Shown: positions 54,747-61,718, counted from the first letter of the stretch. The stretch: DNA of 64,000 bases from Roseibacillus persicicus (GCF_014651675.1 NZ_BMXI01000007.1:62001-126000); one strand, 5' to 3'. A program made the numbers and translations. Notes: generated by a model from the sequence alone, not told the origin.

Positions 54747-57143
54747 TTGAAAAAAAGCGGTCTTAAAAACCGGACGATATGTACGTCCTTAGTCTCGGTT
54801 GTTCTAGGCGGTATGACTTTAAGTCTACCCGGACAATCAGTGGTGCAGCAGGAGCTGGAGCGTCGTCGCGATAACGTGATTGCTGCAGAGGAAGCGATTA
54901 TGGCAGGCGACGACGCCTACCAAAAATCGGACTTCCAAGAAGCGGTATCCAAGTATCGCGAAGCCTTTGCCAAAGTTCCTGCCGGTGATAAGACGGACAA
55001 GTTTCGAGAGGCGGCTCGTGAACGCTATGCGCAGGCCGCAGTGCAAGCTGCCCGCGTGATGAATAGGCAGGGAGATCGTCAAGGTGCAATCGAGATGGTC
55101 GATGAAGTCTTGGGGAAGGATGTTTTTCCCGAGTATTTTCCAGCTCAAAAGCTCAGAGCTCAGTTGGACGATCCGATTCGTTCAAATCCCTCCGCTACGG
55201 AAGAGCATGGCCAGAATATTGATGAGGTGCGTCGTCTCCTTTATCAGGCTGAGGGAGCTTACAATTTAGCTGATTTTGACCAGTCGATGGCCCTCTATAA
55301 TAAGGTGCTTGTGATCGACCCTTACAACAAGGCGGCTCGTCGCGGGTTGGAGCGAAACAATTCCCGGATTTCAGACTACGCTGATGCCGCCCGTGACCAC
55401 ACTCGGGCGGAATTGATTTCACAGGTAGATTCCCAGTGGGAGTTGAAGAAGAACCAGGATGTTCAGGTCGCCGACGGGATTGTGACCGAAGGGGCGGCTG
55501 GAGGAACTTTTGGTATAAGCGGGGCCAATCAGATCGAAGCCAAGCTAGACAATATCATCGTTCCTTTCGTTGATTTTGAGGAGACTTCTTTGGTCGAGGC
55601 TGTTGAATTCTTGGAAGGCCAGTCGCGGGCTTTGGATCCGGAGATCATGGAGGAGAACAAGGGCATCGATTTCGTCATGAATATGGGTTCCGGCAACTCT
55701 CCTGAAATCGACGAGCTTCTCCAGCGTCGATTCTCATTCCGTTTGCGGAATGTGCCTCTTCGTCAGGTGGTTGAATATGTAACTCGCCAGTCGGGAACTT
55801 CGTTTCGGGTAGACTCTTATGCCGTGGTGATTCAGCCTGCTTCGGGGCTGACTGATGATGTCGTTGTGAAGCGCTATCAAGTGCCACCTAATTTTCTGAG
55901 CCAGACATCAGGGAGTGTCGCGGATAGCGATCCTTTCGGGTCAGACAGCGGTGGAGGCGGGACGCTTGCCCCCCGTTTGACGGCGCGTGAATATCTGGAA
56001 AATGCCGGAGTTCCTTTTCCCGACGGTAGCAGTGCGAGCTACAATTCCAGTTTGGGCCAGTTGGTTGTGAAGACCACAGAAGCCGGACACGACGAAGTTC
56101 GCGGGATTGTGGACGCCTTGAATTTGCAAGAGCCGATCGCGGTGGTGATCGAGACCAAGATTGTTCGGGTGAGTCAAGAGAACCTCGAAGAGTTTAACGT
56201 AGATGTTGCGATTCAGAATCTTGAGGCTTCCGGGGATCTCGTTGTCGGAGGCGGCACGGTTGGGAATGGTCGTCAGAGTGATTACTACGGAGGCAACCCC
56301 ATTACCTCCGGTCTCCGGAGTGGTGATTTCGCCACCTCTGGTGACGCGATCGAGACCGTTCTCAATGACGAAGGAGGGGCGAGTCTCAATTCCGCGCCTG
56401 GATTTCTTTCCATGCTGGGCATTGCCAACGACCATGCGGTTTCCGTTCTTTTGAGAGGGCTGAACCAGAAAAAAGGAACTGATATCTTGTCTCAACCTTC
56501 GGTGGTAACCCGTTCCGGACAGCAAGCTATCGTGGAGTCGACCCGCGAGTTGATTTACCCAACCGAGTATGAACCACCAGAGCTTCCGAACTCCGTGGGT
56601 GCGACATTGATTGATATCAACACGGGGATCGAGACTGATGCCGGAAGTTCTTTTTCCGCTACCCCTTCACACCCAACTGCGTTCGAGACTCGCAAGCTTG
56701 GAACTTTTCTCGAAGTTCAACCGACGGTTAGCGCGGATCGTACTTACGCTGATCTGGCCTTTAACCTCAATATTGAGGAGTTTCTCGGGTTCATCAATTA
56801 TGGAGAGCCGATTCAAGGGGGAAGTTCGACGCCGGATTTCGGAATCATTGGAGCAGGCTCTTCGATCTCAGGGGAGGTGACTTCGAATGATATTTTGATG
56901 CCTCTTTTCAATGTCGTTCGACTGAATACCAATATCTCGGTCGGCACGGGTGAGACTATACTCCTTGGAGGAGTTCTCAATGAGAAGGTCGAGATGGTGG
57001 AAGATAAGGTTCCTGTTCTTGGGGATGTTCCTTTTCTTGGTAAGCTTTTCAGATCAGACGCCTTACAGCGTAATAAGAGCGTGGTGATGGTGTTTGTGAC
57101 CGTTCGAATCGTTGACCCTGCGGGCAATCCGGTACAGAAGTAG
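54747..57143 (+). CDS. Outer-membrane secretin (GspD/PilQ-type, Amuc_1098-like)
   Basis: A 798-residue outer-membrane channel protein of the type II/IV secretin superfamily. TTG start gives a signal peptide (MKKSGLKNRTI...LPGQ). Residues about 40-230 are tetratricopeptide-like (GDDAYQKSDFQEAVSKYREA and GAYNLADFDQSMALYNKVLV), followed by STN/N-type modules and the secretin core at about 560-795, with the VPVLGDVPFLGKLFRS signature. This arrangement resembles the Akkermansia Amuc_1098 pilus secretin; in that genome the genes Amuc_1099-1102 are adjacent, and they are missing here. The gene leads a unit with an AsmA-like protein (35 bases later) and an ATPase. It therefore looks like an orphan secretin with new partners. 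The exported substrate is unknown. Confidence 0.88.
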   Translation: MKKSGLKNRTICTSLVSVVLGGMTLSLPGQSVVQQELERRRDNVIAAEEAIMAGDDAYQKSDFQEAVSKYREAFAKVPAGDKTDKFREAARERYAQAAVQAARVMNRQGDRQGAIEMVDEVLGKDVFPEYFPAQKLRAQLDDPIRSNPSATEEHGQNIDEVRRLLYQAEGAYNLADFDQSMALYNKVLVIDPYNKAARRGLERNNSRISDYADAARDHTRAELISQVDSQWELKKNQDVQVADGIVTEGAAGGTFGISGANQIEAKLDNIIVPFVDFEETSLVEAVEFLEGQSRALDPEIMEENKGIDFVMNMGSGNSPEIDELLQRRFSFRLRNVPLRQVVEYVTRQSGTSFRVDSYAVVIQPASGLTDDVVVKRYQVPPNFLSQTSGSVADSDPFGSDSGGGGTLAPRLTAREYLENAGVPFPDGSSASYNSSLGQLVVKTTEAGHDEVRGIVDALNLQEPIAVVIETKIVRVSQENLEEFNVDVAIQNLEASGDLVVGGGTVGNGRQSDYYGGNPITSGLRSGDFATSGDAIETVLNDEGGASLNSAPGFLSMLGIANDHAVSVLLRGLNQKKGTDILSQPSVVTRSGQQAIVESTRELIYPTEYEPPELPNSVGATLIDINTGIETDAGSSFSATPSHPTAFETRKLGTFLEVQPTVSADRTYADLAFNLNIEEFLGFINYGEPIQGGSSTPDFGIIGAGSSISGEVTSNDILMPLFNVVRLNTNISVGTGETILLGGVLNEKVEMVEDKVPVLGDVPFLGKLFRSDALQRNKSVVMVFVTVRIVDPAGNPVQK

Positions 57144-57178: not shown

Positions 57179-58633
57179 ATGAACAAGAATTCAACCGAGA
57201 AAAATACCTACTCCGTCGACGAGATGATGGAGAAGCTGCGCGAAGGCGATCGCGAGAAGCGCGAGGAAGGCGAATTAGTCACTCGCGAGGACGGGACCCA
57301 AGTCCTTCGTGTGAAAAAGCGTAAGCGGCGCAGTAAGCAAAAAAAGGAAGAAGAGGCGAAGCGTCGCAAGAGGAATCTGGTGCTTCGAACTTTTGCTCTC
57401 ATTGCGATACCTTTGCTCTTGGGTTTAGGTATTGTTCTCCAACTGGTCAGATTCCATAGTCCTGGATTTTCCAAGGGTGTAGTTGCAGCGGTCTGGGAAA
57501 AGACGGGAGCAAATGCGAAAATCAACCGATTGAGCCCGCTGGGGACCAAGGTTACCGCGCAGTCACTCACTTTGGCTTGGCCAGATGATTCTCCTCTCGA
57601 GCAAGTCAAGGCGACCACGGTTTCAGGGGATTTGAGTCTCACTTCGTTCGTAACCGGTCGATTGGGAGGCGAGGAGCTTGGTTCCGAAAAAGGGTATTTG
57701 CTCACTTCCGGCCGAAAGGATCGGAAGGTCAGCCAACCGAAAGGGGAAGCCGCGAATCTGGTAGGTTTCAAGCGCTATACAAGTGACAATTTCTCATTTT
57801 ATTTCGGAAAAGTGAATTCGCCCTTCCGCTTGGAAAACTCGCGGGTGCGTTTCATTCCCACCGCCTATTCCCGTCAGTTGCATCTCACGGGCGGCAGCCT
57901 AATTTCTGGTTCTTGGGGCGAAGTCCCCTTGAAGCGAGGAACAATCGAATTTCTGGAGAACACTATGAGGGTGGTCTCCCTCCGGTTTGAGGAAGAGCAA
58001 AGGCATCTTATTTTCTCAGGCGATTTGGACTTGGCTGACTCTTTCCACAGCCTCTCGGTGGAGGTCGTCGAGGGCAACGTCGGGAACGTCGGAGGCTACG
58101 GATACGAAAGATTCTTCGAAAGTGATTTGGCTGGTTCGACCGGAACTTTGACTTTCCGTCCCTGGAATATTGAGAGTCACGAGGTAACGATTTCAGCGAA
58201 GCCAGAATACCTGACTCTTAAGAATCTGCCTTTTCTGAGTGTTTTGGAAGAGTTGTATGGCGATGCTCGTTTCCAAAACTTTGAGTTCGAACTCGAGAAC
58301 TCTTTCGATATTGTCAGAAGTTCGAAAGGGTCGGAAATCAAGAATTTGGATCTACTGGAGCTAGGAATTCTTGCCGTTAAAGGAAATCTCAGGGTAGAGG
58401 GTCGAGAGTTAAAGGGAAATCTAAAGGTTGGCCTCAATGCTCATAAGAAGCTCTCTCTCCGTAACGCGCAGCGTGATGAGTTGTTCAGCAAGGGCAAACT
58501 GGAGAGTGGATTCTTCTGGTTCGATGTTGAGCTCAGCGGTTCGGTTGAAGTTCCGAGGGACAATTTTTCAAGTTATCTTCAAGCGGGGCCAAATGCCAGC
58601 GATGAGGATTTGTTCGAGCAGTTGACCCGCTAA
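57179..58633 (+). CDS. Membrane-anchored AsmA-like protein of unknown function
   Basis: A 484-residue protein. The N-terminal about 65 residues are cytoplasmic and strongly basic and coiled (KREEGELVTREDGTQVLRVK, then KRKRRSKQKKEEEAKRRKRN). One transmembrane helix follows (about 68-92, VLRTFALIAIPLLLGLGIVL). The rest is exported and beta-rich, with repeating LRV..L.G-type strands reminiscent of AsmA-like proteins that bridge the envelope. The family assignment is weak. It begins 35 bases after the secretin and may link it to the inner membrane, taking the place of a GspC- or PilP-like connector. Confidence 0.7.
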   Translation: MNKNSTEKNTYSVDEMMEKLREGDREKREEGELVTREDGTQVLRVKKRKRRSKQKKEEEAKRRKRNLVLRTFALIAIPLLLGLGIVLQLVRFHSPGFSKGVVAAVWEKTGANAKINRLSPLGTKVTAQSLTLAWPDDSPLEQVKATTVSGDLSLTSFVTGRLGGEELGSEKGYLLTSGRKDRKVSQPKGEAANLVGFKRYTSDNFSFYFGKVNSPFRLENSRVRFIPTAYSRQLHLTGGSLISGSWGEVPLKRGTIEFLENTMRVVSLRFEEEQRHLIFSGDLDLADSFHSLSVEVVEGNVGNVGGYGYERFFESDLAGSTGTLTFRPWNIESHEVTISAKPEYLTLKNLPFLSVLEELYGDARFQNFEFELENSFDIVRSSKGSEIKNLDLLELGILAVKGNLRVEGRELKGNLKVGLNAHKKLSLRNAQRDELFSKGKLESGFFWFDVELSGSVEVPRDNFSSYLQAGPNASDEDLFEQLTR

Positions 58634-58803
58634 TGTGCTAAAGCCATTGGTGGCAGTTCGCTCCCCCAGTACGCTCTTTCCTAGCGAGGGCTTATTGTTT
58701 GTTCCGTTTGCCATGGTGGTGTCTCGACGGATTAGTACGCCATTCGAGCTTGCGGCGAGACCCTCTTTCCAAAAAACTCCCCATAGCGAAAAGCCTTTTC
58801 CCC

Positions 58804-61242
58804 ATGTCCGATTTCAACAAGCAGCCGACCCTATTCGAAGTATTTGGGCGCACTACAACCCCCACGGTTCCAGAGATTAATGAGGAGGCGCTCGATACTC
58901 TGACCAATGTTCTCACCTCCTCGGGAGATGATTTGGGAAAGGTTGTTCTGTTGCGGTCGCCGCGTGCAGGATATGGCAAAACCCTTCTTTTGCAGTCTGT
59001 TAGCAACCGCCTCAATGAGACCTTTCGCTTTCTGGCGGTGGAACCCAGTGGGGGTGGACGAATTGATGGCGAGGTGGTTCTCGAAAGTGTGTTGCGACAG
59101 CTGTCTGAGGTTCTGCCAGCTTCCGGCGGTTTGACCGAATTCGATCTCTTCGCTCGCAAGCTACTGGCGATTGGATTGAAGCCACTGCTCATCAGCGGGG
59201 AAATTCCCAGTCATGATCGCGAAGGTGCACTCTTTGCGATTGAGAATCGTCCCATTGAGACTTTCGATTTTCATCACCAACAAGCAGCTACAGCCCATTG
59301 GACTCAGGCCAACTTTGAGGTTCTTGGTCCGCGCTTGGCCTCAGAGCTCAGTGAGATTTCACGCTGCACTCTACGTGGGTGCGCCTATTGGGTGGATTTG
59401 CTGTTTCGCTATGCCACCACTCCACCGGAAAAGGTCGAACGAACCCGACTGCTTACCGAAGCTGTATTTGGCGACCTACCAGGGCAGGGGAGTAGTGGCG
59501 CTGAAGAGCGGTTGCAGAGTTTGTTTGCGCTGTTGGGTCTGGTTGAGCCTGTTGTTTTGGTCTTTGACGAAACGGAAGGTTTGTCCAATCAGCCGGAGGC
59601 AGGGCTTCGCGTGGCAGCCTTTATCGTTCAACTTCGTCAAGCGTGTCCGAGTCTGACAGTGATTCTCAGTGTCAACGAAGACGTTTGGGAGACCGGATTG
59701 AAGCCTCTCATGCCTGGCGGTCTGGAAGACCGGTTGACGGAATACGAAGTGTCATTGAGCGCTCTGAAACGGAGTGAGGCTGACACTCTCCTGGAGAGCC
59801 GGTTCGGGAGGGAAGCATCTTTGGTCCGCGAAGCAATGTCTTGGCCTGAGCCTCTCTCGGCCCGTGGGGTTCTCCGGGAAGCGGCCCTTGCCGTCCGCAA
59901 ACTTTCTCAAGAAGCAGCTTTCGTTGAAGATGAAGAACCGCCCTCGGAGCCTGTGAGCCGGGGAGTGATGCCACCCCCTTTGGATAGTGTTCTTTCTCCA
60001 GAAGTTGAGCAAAGACTTGAACCAAGCACCGCCTTTGAGGCCGAGGCAATTCCGTCCGGAGAGGCTTCTCCTCGCTCGAAGGACGAGGATTCAATTCCAG
60101 TTGAACCTTCTGGAGAGCCGACTTTCGCAGATCCATTCCGTGAAGTAGCGCAAGAAGAGCAAAGCTCTCCTGTTGAGCAACCGGCGCTCGTAGAAGAACA
60201 AGTTGCTGAACCCGAAAGATCACCGTTCGAAATTGTGCCTGAGGGCACGACTTCGAGCAATGAACCTGCAGAAAATATCGCTGCTCCTGAAGTTGCCCCC
60301 GAAGATCCTTTCGCAGATGCTGGAAATTCTGATTTTGCCTCCAGCCCCAAGGTGAATCCGGGCGAGTGGTCGGCCGAAACTGCGATGAAGCAGTTTGCTG
60401 CCGCTCAGCCAGAGGCTCGTCCTTCCCAAGAATCTGCAGAAGCTTCCGGCAGGCCTTCAGAAGTCGAAACGAAAAGTCCGTTCGATTTGGTTGAACCTGA
60501 GGTTGAGTCCTCTCCCGCGCCTGCGGAGCCGAGAGCCGCTTCAGTTGAGCCGAGTCCTTTCCAAGTGCTCAAGGAGGAAAAGGAACGTGCCGAAGCGGAA
60601 GTTCGCGAGCAAATGTCGTTCCCGGCAAATAGCGCTGGGAGTTCGACGGGGGAAGCATCTTCTCCGTTTTCCGTTAGTCAGCCCGCGGTACCAGCTCAAC
60701 CGCCTGTCGAGGCTTCGCCTCCCGCTGCCTCCTCCCAATCTGATCACCCCGGCAACAATTCACCTTTCAGCATCAACAAGTCCTATTCGTCCGAACCATC
60801 TGTGAAAATGACGGAGGAGGAGGAAAGGATGCCGACAACAAGCGCTGCTAGCGTGGAGTCGCCCTTCGCAGCTGTTCGGGAAGAGCGCGCGGTTGAGAAG
60901 ACTGCTGACTCTGTGAACTCTCAGGCTTTGTCTCCAACACTTCCGGATCGCGAAGAGCCGGCTCCGCAGCCTCATTCGGTTCCACCCCAGCTGCCAGCCG
61001 AGGAGAGACCCTCATTTGAAGAAACATCTCAACCAGCTCCAGTCTCGGAGTCGTCGTCTCCTGCGTCAGCAGATCCGGCTAGAGAATCAGCCTTCGCCGC
61101 AACGTCACCCTTTGCAGCAGCTCCTACTTCAGCCAAGGATGTCCAAGCTCCTGCCGAGAGCGCAAGCTCGGGGCAAGATACCTCCGAAGTTGAAGAGCTG
61201 TTGAGCCAATTCAAAAAGCGATTTGGGCAGCCAGGCTCATAA
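58804..61242 (+). CDS. AAA-type ATPase with disordered [S/D]PF-repeat tail
   Basis: About 812 residues from ATG at 58804; the frame is open from 58699 without a conserved look. The N-terminal about 370 residues hold an AAA/STAND-like ATPase: degenerate P-loop RSPRAGYGKT (51-60, Pro in place of Gly at the first position) and Walker B VLVFDETEG with Asp255-Glu256. The C-terminal half is low-complexity Pro/Ser/Glu and almost certainly disordered. It carries nine copies of a short motif, [S/D]-P-F followed by mostly hydrophobic residues, starting at residues 443, 473, 501, 558, 584, 620, 653, 686 and 768. A short predicted helix (EVEELLSQFKKRFG) closes the protein. No family is recognised. It follows the AsmA-like gene, so a role with the secretin is possible. 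Confidence 0.8.
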   Translation: MSDFNKQPTLFEVFGRTTTPTVPEINEEALDTLTNVLTSSGDDLGKVVLLRSPRAGYGKTLLLQSVSNRLNETFRFLAVEPSGGGRIDGEVVLESVLRQLSEVLPASGGLTEFDLFARKLLAIGLKPLLISGEIPSHDREGALFAIENRPIETFDFHHQQAATAHWTQANFEVLGPRLASELSEISRCTLRGCAYWVDLLFRYATTPPEKVERTRLLTEAVFGDLPGQGSSGAEERLQSLFALLGLVEPVVLVFDETEGLSNQPEAGLRVAAFIVQLRQACPSLTVILSVNEDVWETGLKPLMPGGLEDRLTEYEVSLSALKRSEADTLLESRFGREASLVREAMSWPEPLSARGVLREAALAVRKLSQEAAFVEDEEPPSEPVSRGVMPPPLDSVLSPEVEQRLEPSTAFEAEAIPSGEASPRSKDEDSIPVEPSGEPTFADPFREVAQEEQSSPVEQPALVEEQVAEPERSPFEIVPEGTTSSNEPAENIAAPEVAPEDPFADAGNSDFASSPKVNPGEWSAETAMKQFAAAQPEARPSQESAEASGRPSEVETKSPFDLVEPEVESSPAPAEPRAASVEPSPFQVLKEEKERAEAEVREQMSFPANSAGSSTGEASSPFSVSQPAVPAQPPVEASPPAASSQSDHPGNNSPFSINKSYSSEPSVKMTEEEERMPTTSAASVESPFAAVREERAVEKTADSVNSQALSPTLPDREEPAPQPHSVPPQLPAEERPSFEETSQPAPVSESSSPASADPARESAFAATSPFAAAPTSAKDVQAPAESASSGQDTSEVEELLSQFKKRFGQPGS

Positions 61243-61309: not shown

Positions 61310-61384
61310 GTCCCCGTAGTTCAACGGATAGAACACGGGTTTCCTAAACCTGAGATCCAAGTTCGATTCTTGGCGGGGACGCCA
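61310..61384 (+). tRNA. tRNA-Arg (anticodon CCT)
   Basis: Acceptor arms GTCCCCG (61310-61316) and CGGGGAC (61374-61380) pair fully. The D arm, anticodon loop TTCCTAA with anticodon CCT (reads AGG) and T arm CCAAG/CTTGG with loop TTCGATT are all visible. CCA is encoded at 61382-61384. Confidence 0.97.

Positions 61385-61641: not shown

Positions 61642-61718
<77 letters not shown>

Follow-up and report, generated by a model that had tools for sequence, protein, structure and literature searches.

What does a bacterial AAA+ ATPase do with a disordered tail that carries nine spaced [S/D]PF motifs? Eukaryotic trafficking offers the best-known cases of repeated [N/D/S]PF turns that one receptor reads; the ATPase in question is encoded by Roseibacillus persicicus, next to a secretin gene. 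The window analysed here is the whole 64,000-nucleotide stretch of this genome that contains the locus, and its relevant features are as follows.

54747–57143, plus strand: secretin of the Amuc_1098 family, second copy (NF042912, 852 bits against a cut-off of 750; Pfam Secretin, 3.9e-26)
57179–58633, plus strand: operon partner of 484 aa, with a cytosolic N terminus, one membrane helix (assigned by eye) and a large extra-cytosolic part
57209–57247, plus strand: N-terminal cytosolic motif YSVDEMMEKLREG of the 484-aa partner, conserved in a 34-member cluster
58804–61242, plus strand: gene for an 812-aa AAA+ ATPase with SPF tail, starting at ATG
58804–59943, plus strand: AAA+ ATPase domain, residues 1–380 (Walker A RSPRAGYGKT, Walker B VLVFDE)
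59944–61170, plus strand: disordered tail of the ATPase (AlphaFold2 pLDDT mostly <50; orthologous tails not alignable)
61171–61224, plus strand: conserved C-terminal helix of the ATPase (containing VEELLSQFKKRFGQ; ortholog consensus DRVDDLLRQFRERYGR)
61310–61384: tRNA-Arg (CCT), directly downstream of the ATPase gene
61642–61718: tRNA-Met (CAT), downstream of the ATPase gene

The ATPase, its operon and its tail

The ATG at 58804 was taken as the start of the ATPase, a longer frame from a TTG at 58699 being without ortholog support. AlphaFold2 models the ATPase domain with pLDDT mostly >90 between residues 30 and 370; both Walker A and Walker B are present, and the P-loop residues and D254 of Walker B are invariant in 26 orthologs. 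At the N terminus, the ATPase often opens with an [N/D/H]PF..FE.FG element. The AAA+ fold is that of the initiator clade, with Cdc6/Orc1 and TnsC as the best structural matches (VIA-align Z 13–15.6), among them archaeal Cdc6 1fnn (Z 15.6 over 230 residues, rmsd 3.2) and TnsC (Z 14.1). This likeness is one of fold: identity is just 11–21% and, unlike Cdc6/ORC and TnsC, the ATPase is encoded with a secretin rather than with replication or transposition genes, a context that does not suggest DNA binding or a replication or transposition role. Sequence searches against the PDB gave P-loop-level matches only, Pfam AAA_16 was matched only below its cut-off, Pfam and NCBIfam supplied no named family, and PADLOC supplied no link to defence.

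Two secretins in the genome exceed the Amuc_1098-family cut-off. The higher-scoring one lies at G000:C2:369923-372331 and the window contains the lower-scoring copy, which places the SPF ATPase in a second secretin system. The trio of secretin, 484-aa membrane protein and ATPase recurs in 34 loci, with the membrane protein, which has no real Pfam or NCBIfam match, upstream of the ATPase. Almost every complete ATPase tail has the C-terminal helix, which AlphaFold2 models over residues 790–807 (block-mean pLDDT 82–88). Within it, VEELLSQFKKRFG resembles YSVDEMMEKLREG of the 484-aa partner; in the 2.06 Mb of this genome that we surveyed, motifs of this type comprise these two and one unconvincing match. 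Judged by their likeness, YSVDEMMEKLREG and VEELLSQFKKRFG are probably copies of another short motif, and may bind one partner in common or be two ligands of one site. The nuo genes found downstream of the ATPase in Luteolibacter were judged to be mere neighbours.

The original prediction, made from the window alone, listed seven SPF and two DPF motifs at 60130–61113 in the ATPase tail, and their positions proved exact to the base.

60130–60138, plus strand: DPF motif 1 (DPFREV), among the least certain
60220–60228, plus strand: SPF motif 2 (SPFEIV)
60304–60312, plus strand: DPF motif 3 (DPFADA), among the least certain
60475–60483, plus strand: SPF motif 4 (SPFDLV)
60553–60561, plus strand: SPF motif 5 (SPFQVL), aligns with SPFQIH of the ortholog G002
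60661–60669, plus strand: SPF motif 6 (SPFSVS)
60760–60768, plus strand: SPF motif 7 (SPFSIN), aligns with SPFEIN of G002
60859–60867, plus strand: SPF motif 8 (SPFAAV)
61105–61113, plus strand: SPF motif 9 (SPFAAA), aligns with SPFSVS of G002

The nine motifs are spaced by 26–82 residues and span 328 residues in total. The tail is rich in S, E, P and A and, up to its conserved terminal helix, is predicted to be disordered, with AlphaFold2 mean pLDDT mostly 35–50 over residues ~390–788. Shuffled versions of the tail contain on average 0.52 [SD]PF and at most 5 in 100,000 shuffles, as against the nine observed. Seven different codon triplets encode the seven SPF (TCA CCG TTC, AGT CCG TTC, AGT CCT TTC, TCT CCG TTT, TCA CCT TTC, TCG CCC TTC and TCA CCC TTT), so it is the protein sequence that is maintained, and recent duplication of DNA does not account for the motifs. 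When the full-length ATPase is modelled by AlphaFold2, the motifs stay at low pLDDT and do not dock onto it in cis. The tail also contains an island without SPF, at residues 520–535 (about 60361–60408), which reads GEWSAETAMKQFAAA here and GNWSAQSAVEHFAAS in G002 and is conserved and predicted to form a short helix.

The motif in orthologous tails

The ATPase domain is present in 54 of 78 sampled relatives, and the 80 named ATPase loci are mostly labelled Akkermansiaceae, Roseibacillus, Luteolibacter, Haloferula or Verrucomicrobiales. Orthologous tails, the shortest of about 30 aa and the longest of 855 aa, cannot be aligned, and the majority carry the motif, with up to 16 [SNDT]PF in the richest (L034) and 14 in L008 and L039. 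Motif number is very variable: many Luteolibacter ATPases have 0–2, and tail-less Haloferula copies have none. These low-motif and tail-less proteins indicate that the ATPase's own motifs are dispensable. Homologous ATPases of other families (f2, f3 and f4) were found to have no SPF tails, and their C-terminal region is mostly different.

Pooled across 83 orthologous tails from Akkermansiaceae, SPF is observed 204 times against 12.9 expected and NPF 19 times against 2.2; TPF (15 against 6.6) and DPF (12 against 6.9, a weak enrichment) follow, and APF falls at 14 against 20. Because DPF is weakly enriched and NPF strongly, the two DPF in the window are the least certain members of its set. Downstream of the phenylalanine, A, I, V or P is preferred at +2 and V or A at +3, and this ortholog consensus, x-[A/I/V/P]-[V/A], bears out the mostly hydrophobic residues originally noticed after each motif. 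Some tails contain recent repeats (SPFAPA in L008, SPFVPA in L058), and the L014/L053 tail is an (EAKPVV)n-type array with zero phenylalanine that ends at a contig edge.

Conservation of motif cores and linkers in pairs of ATPases was computed with the C-terminal helix excluded. In the close pair L007–L038, 18/18 core residues are identical and linkers are 36% identical; in L010–L048, the values are 13/15 and 37%. More distant pairs have cores out of register, at 33–52% identity. The window ATPase and its nearest congener align at 13/27 core residues, though their motif counts are 9 and 8, and the counts for the window ATPase and two congeners are 9, 8 and 8. As far as these alignments go, positions turn over among distant pairs and number persists, which is the turnover expected of multivalent short motifs.

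A Roadblock/MglB-like second carrier

We surveyed 2.06 Mb (39%) of the organism's own genome, comprising 1685 ORFs of at least 80 aa. A DNA-pattern search for SPF clusters gave nothing useful; among the surveyed ORFs, one other only has an [S/N]PF cluster in low-complexity or disordered sequence, and it adjoins a gene for an MglA-like protein.

L122:18462-19412: second carrier, Roadblock/MglB-like, 316 aa, with motifs NPFASL, SPFAAV, SPFGFA, NPFLSA and SPFTSE
L122:17909-18433, minus strand: MglA-like protein, adjoining the SPF Roadblock-like gene

The second carrier has no domain in common with the ATPase. Its motifs lie in a disordered N terminus, 130–270 aa long in the family (AlphaFold2 pLDDT about 44–56), ahead of a confidently predicted C-terminal domain (residues ~200–299), and its full-length AlphaFold2 model again shows no docking in cis, the motifs keeping low pLDDT. 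The top 18 Foldseek matches of the C-terminal domain are Roadblock/Ragulator-type domains, and VIA-align gives moderate Z values of 7.9 for archaeal Roadblock3, 7.4 for 3kye and 7.2 for Myxococcus xanthus MglB. Pfam Robl_LC7 matches none of 53 close members and nothing in the genome; it rises above its cut-off (24.8 versus 23 bits) in a distant homolog, L335, which the profile of the Roadblock-like family matches at about 5e-16.

Orthologs of this protein contain up to 10 motifs, with the same grammar as the ATPase tails, [S/N]-P-F-x-[V/I/A]-[A/V]: in 55 non-redundant linkers, SPF occurs 235 times against 11.8 expected and NPF 34 times against 2.4, followed by V/I/A at +2 and A/V at +3. Several motifs are in register family-wide around an LPExR element. 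Among five close pairs, cores are 100% identical in four and 17/18 in the fifth, with linkers at 31–68%, and in the closest pairs S and F are less conserved outside motifs than inside; one more distant pair is not alignable. Second paralogs of the protein (L282, L283 and L281, in G132, G133 and G145) have 0–1 motifs.

The original prediction had proposed that orthologs be aligned to see whether cores persist while linkers diverge, and in close pairs of both carriers core identity is 87–100% and linker identity 31–68%; cores do not drift as fast as linkers there. Its reading of the tail as an array of multivalent short linear binding motifs gains support from this conservation and from the recurrence of the motif in an unrelated second protein, a stronger argument for a binding motif than any the prediction could draw on; the role of hub that it also proposed is one that we infer. 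On this comparative evidence, [S/N]PF is a real, selected short linear motif common to both carriers.

The two carriers also occur together. Among 178 family genomes at least 90% complete, 86 contain the ATPase and 74 the Roadblock-like protein; the two occur together in 69 and are both missing from 87 (Fisher p 1e-26, uncorrected for relatedness). The genomes sampled from genus g3, taken here to be Akkermansia itself, yielded neither protein. Some Haloferula ATPases lack any tail, yet the Roadblock-like proteins there keep 6–9 motifs. In five genomes in which the ATPase was not detected, the Roadblock-like protein has 0, 1, 1, 5 and 6 motifs, whereas the median is 6 among 47 others; having at most one motif is associated with lack of the ATPase at a Fisher p of 0.004. 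We take this as no more than a hint of motif loss without the ATPase: at least two of the five genomes are from a single genus, and two, with completeness of about 90%, possibly just miss the gene. The number of ATPase motifs does not differ significantly with the presence of the Roadblock-like gene (p 0.12).

The protein adjoining the second carrier matches PDB MglA chains at E 6e-15, and an MglA-like GTPase gene is next to the Roadblock-like gene in about 30 of the 178 genomes, wherever it is strongly detected. Its P-loop is intact in L231 (GQVGAGKS), altered in two congeners (L226 and L227) and lost in this genome (GPTAEEVS), where, to judge from its sequence, the protein is possibly a pseudo-GTPase. 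In genus g13, most genomes that bear SPF yielded no MglA-like GTPase. As an obligate receptor for the motif it was rejected, since it occurs in about 30 of 178 genomes and the motif-bearing Roadblock-like protein in 74.

Distant homologs place the Roadblock-like family near pilus genes, with gene names that are our reading of the sequences: L335 lies in a cluster with MglA-, MglB-, PilB- and PilT-like genes, and L331, whose protein has 13 motifs, has pseudopilin and GspF-like genes next to it. The L332 protein has 11 motifs. About 24 kb separate the Roadblock-like gene of this genome from a pilus-type cluster. Long proteins from pilus clusters (L335:2155-5067, minus strand, and L336:6644-9622) have a Roadblock-like C-terminal domain and a repeated [D/P]TPFxxKAxED instead of SPF.

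Candidate receptors and other readings of the motif

We somewhat favour the reading in which SPF peptides are multivalent short linear motifs that bind one shallow pocket on a common receptor, gathering both carriers on a secretin/pilus-type machine. Each motif would form an N-capped turn or the start of a short helix, in which S or N (sometimes D or T) caps and P follows, F would anchor it, and the small hydrophobic side chains at +2 and +3 would fill out the face presented to a shallow hydrophobic pocket. The AAA+ ATPase and the Roadblock/MglB-like protein, both cytosolic, would present the motif in disordered tails, and through many weak contacts, the avidity of which would be set by the number of motifs, the receptor would gather and regulate them at a machine of secretin/type IV pilus type. 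That the motifs bind a protein pocket, that one receptor serves both carriers and that a secretin/pilus machine is involved are each what we infer from these patterns. Gene context yielded no peptide receptor; the candidates, in order, would be a component of the pilus or secretin, the AAA+ domain itself, with its own tail as competing ligand, and the Roadblock domain. A more specific proposal, which we advance tentatively, is a dedicated EH/NPF-like system in verrucomicrobial bacteria, in which one receptor would read [S/N]PFx[VIA][AV] and couple the AAA+ ATPase of the second secretin to an MglA/MglB-like polarity module.

The second of these candidates can be developed into a closed two-component system, in which the AAA+ domain is the receptor, the ATPase tail a built-in competing ligand and the Roadblock-like protein the partner in trans. 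Motifs persist in Roadblock-like proteins alongside tail-less ATPases and tend to be lost in genomes that lack the ATPase, the ATPase N terminus often begins with [N/D/H]PF..FE.FG, and there is an analogy in Eps15, whose EH domains bind partner NPF motifs as well as Eps15's own disordered tail (PMC12370899). We nevertheless consider this version doubtful, because the full-length AlphaFold2 model contains no docking in cis, and because the ATPase-lacking genomes number five only, represent few independent events and include two that keep 5–6 motifs. It is also unlikely that the phenylalanines are non-specific hydrophobic stickers, as in FG-repeat or condensate tails, that promote self-association without a dedicated pocket. 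Such stickers would fit the free variation in number and position of the motifs, the richness of both carriers in P, S, A and E, and the weak match of two Roadblock-like orthologs to the Pfam FG-nucleoporin model; but they would keep F and not its SP context, whereas here S or N before P and V/I/A and A/V at +2 and +3 are specified, S and F are less conserved outside motifs in the closest Roadblock-like pairs, and several Roadblock-like motifs are in register across the family.

That 82–84% of motifs begin with Ser and then Pro might mean that a proline-directed Ser/Thr kinase phosphorylates them and in this way regulates the ATPase, but the second most enriched residue at this position is Asn (8.5-fold and 14-fold), Thr is enriched 2.3-fold or not at all, and the hydrophobic preference at +2/+3 is left unexplained. 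The order S>>N>T,D before P points to an N-cap turn rather than to phosphorylation because N is not phosphorylatable, and we regard the kinase reading as very improbable. Least probable of all is that the motifs are without function, a chance SPF having been copied by drift and slippage in a low-complexity linker. The tails are of low complexity and a few orthologs (L008 and L058) do have recent repeats, but the seven codon triplets of the seven SPF, the ceiling of 5 in 100,000 shuffles, the independent protein with the same grammar and the conservation of cores above linkers already refute this reading for the family as a whole, as judged by sequence comparison.

Short peptides shared among partners are familiar in bacteria from the C-terminal tail of SSB and the C-terminal peptide of FtsZ, in each of which one short peptide, present as a single C-terminal copy, is read by several partners; here, by contrast, there are up to 16 internal copies and two unrelated carriers. 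A literature search for 'SPF motif' in bacteria returned only the unrelated SPF motif of release factors, and we found in the literature no report of this [S/N]PF system and no paper joining Akkermansiaceae with roadblock. The closest likeness is to endocytosis, where EH domains bind NPF motifs of partners and, in competition with these, the tail of the protein to which they belong, as described for Eps15 and Dab2 (PMC12370899). The NPF/DPF–EH network has in common with the present system multivalent [N/D/S]-P-F turns in disordered regions and many weak sites. The present system differs in being bacterial, in favouring Ser over Asn, in its requirement for hydrophobic residues at +2/+3 and in its carriers, an AAA+ ATPase and a Roadblock-like protein; by this analogy the likeness is one of convergence, not homology. 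The receptor need not be an EH domain, since POLE2, a subunit of DNA polymerase epsilon with an unrelated fold, reads the same kind of tripeptide, recognising NPF in a shallow pocket (PMC12808100); POLE2 is a human replication protein, and nothing here points to a homolog of it. Type IV pili of Myxococcus are governed by MglA/MglB polarity modules (for example, PMC9481161 and PMC11580455), and the second carrier resembles these in its Roadblock/MglB-like fold, in the position of its gene beside that of an MglA-like GTPase and in distant homologs encoded with PilB- and PilT-like genes. Unlike in Myxococcus, the MglB-like protein here has a disordered SPF-bearing N terminus and the P-loop of the GTPase is degenerate in this genome.

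Multivalent short linear motifs are themselves already known; the motif, the carriers and the clade are what differ from the known NPF/DPF network. Together, the motifs of the ATPase and the Roadblock-like protein point to a bacterial peptide-and-receptor wiring system that has not been described before, and work on genus g3, taken as Akkermansia, would have missed both carriers. If the proposal is true, a conserved, clade-wide bacterial counterpart, carried by an AAA+ ATPase and by a Roadblock-like protein next to a Ras-like GTPase, would represent an independent invention of such wiring. For Akkermansiaceae, the SPF peptide offers a concrete handle on two proteins of secretin- and pilus-linked loci that have yet to be characterised.
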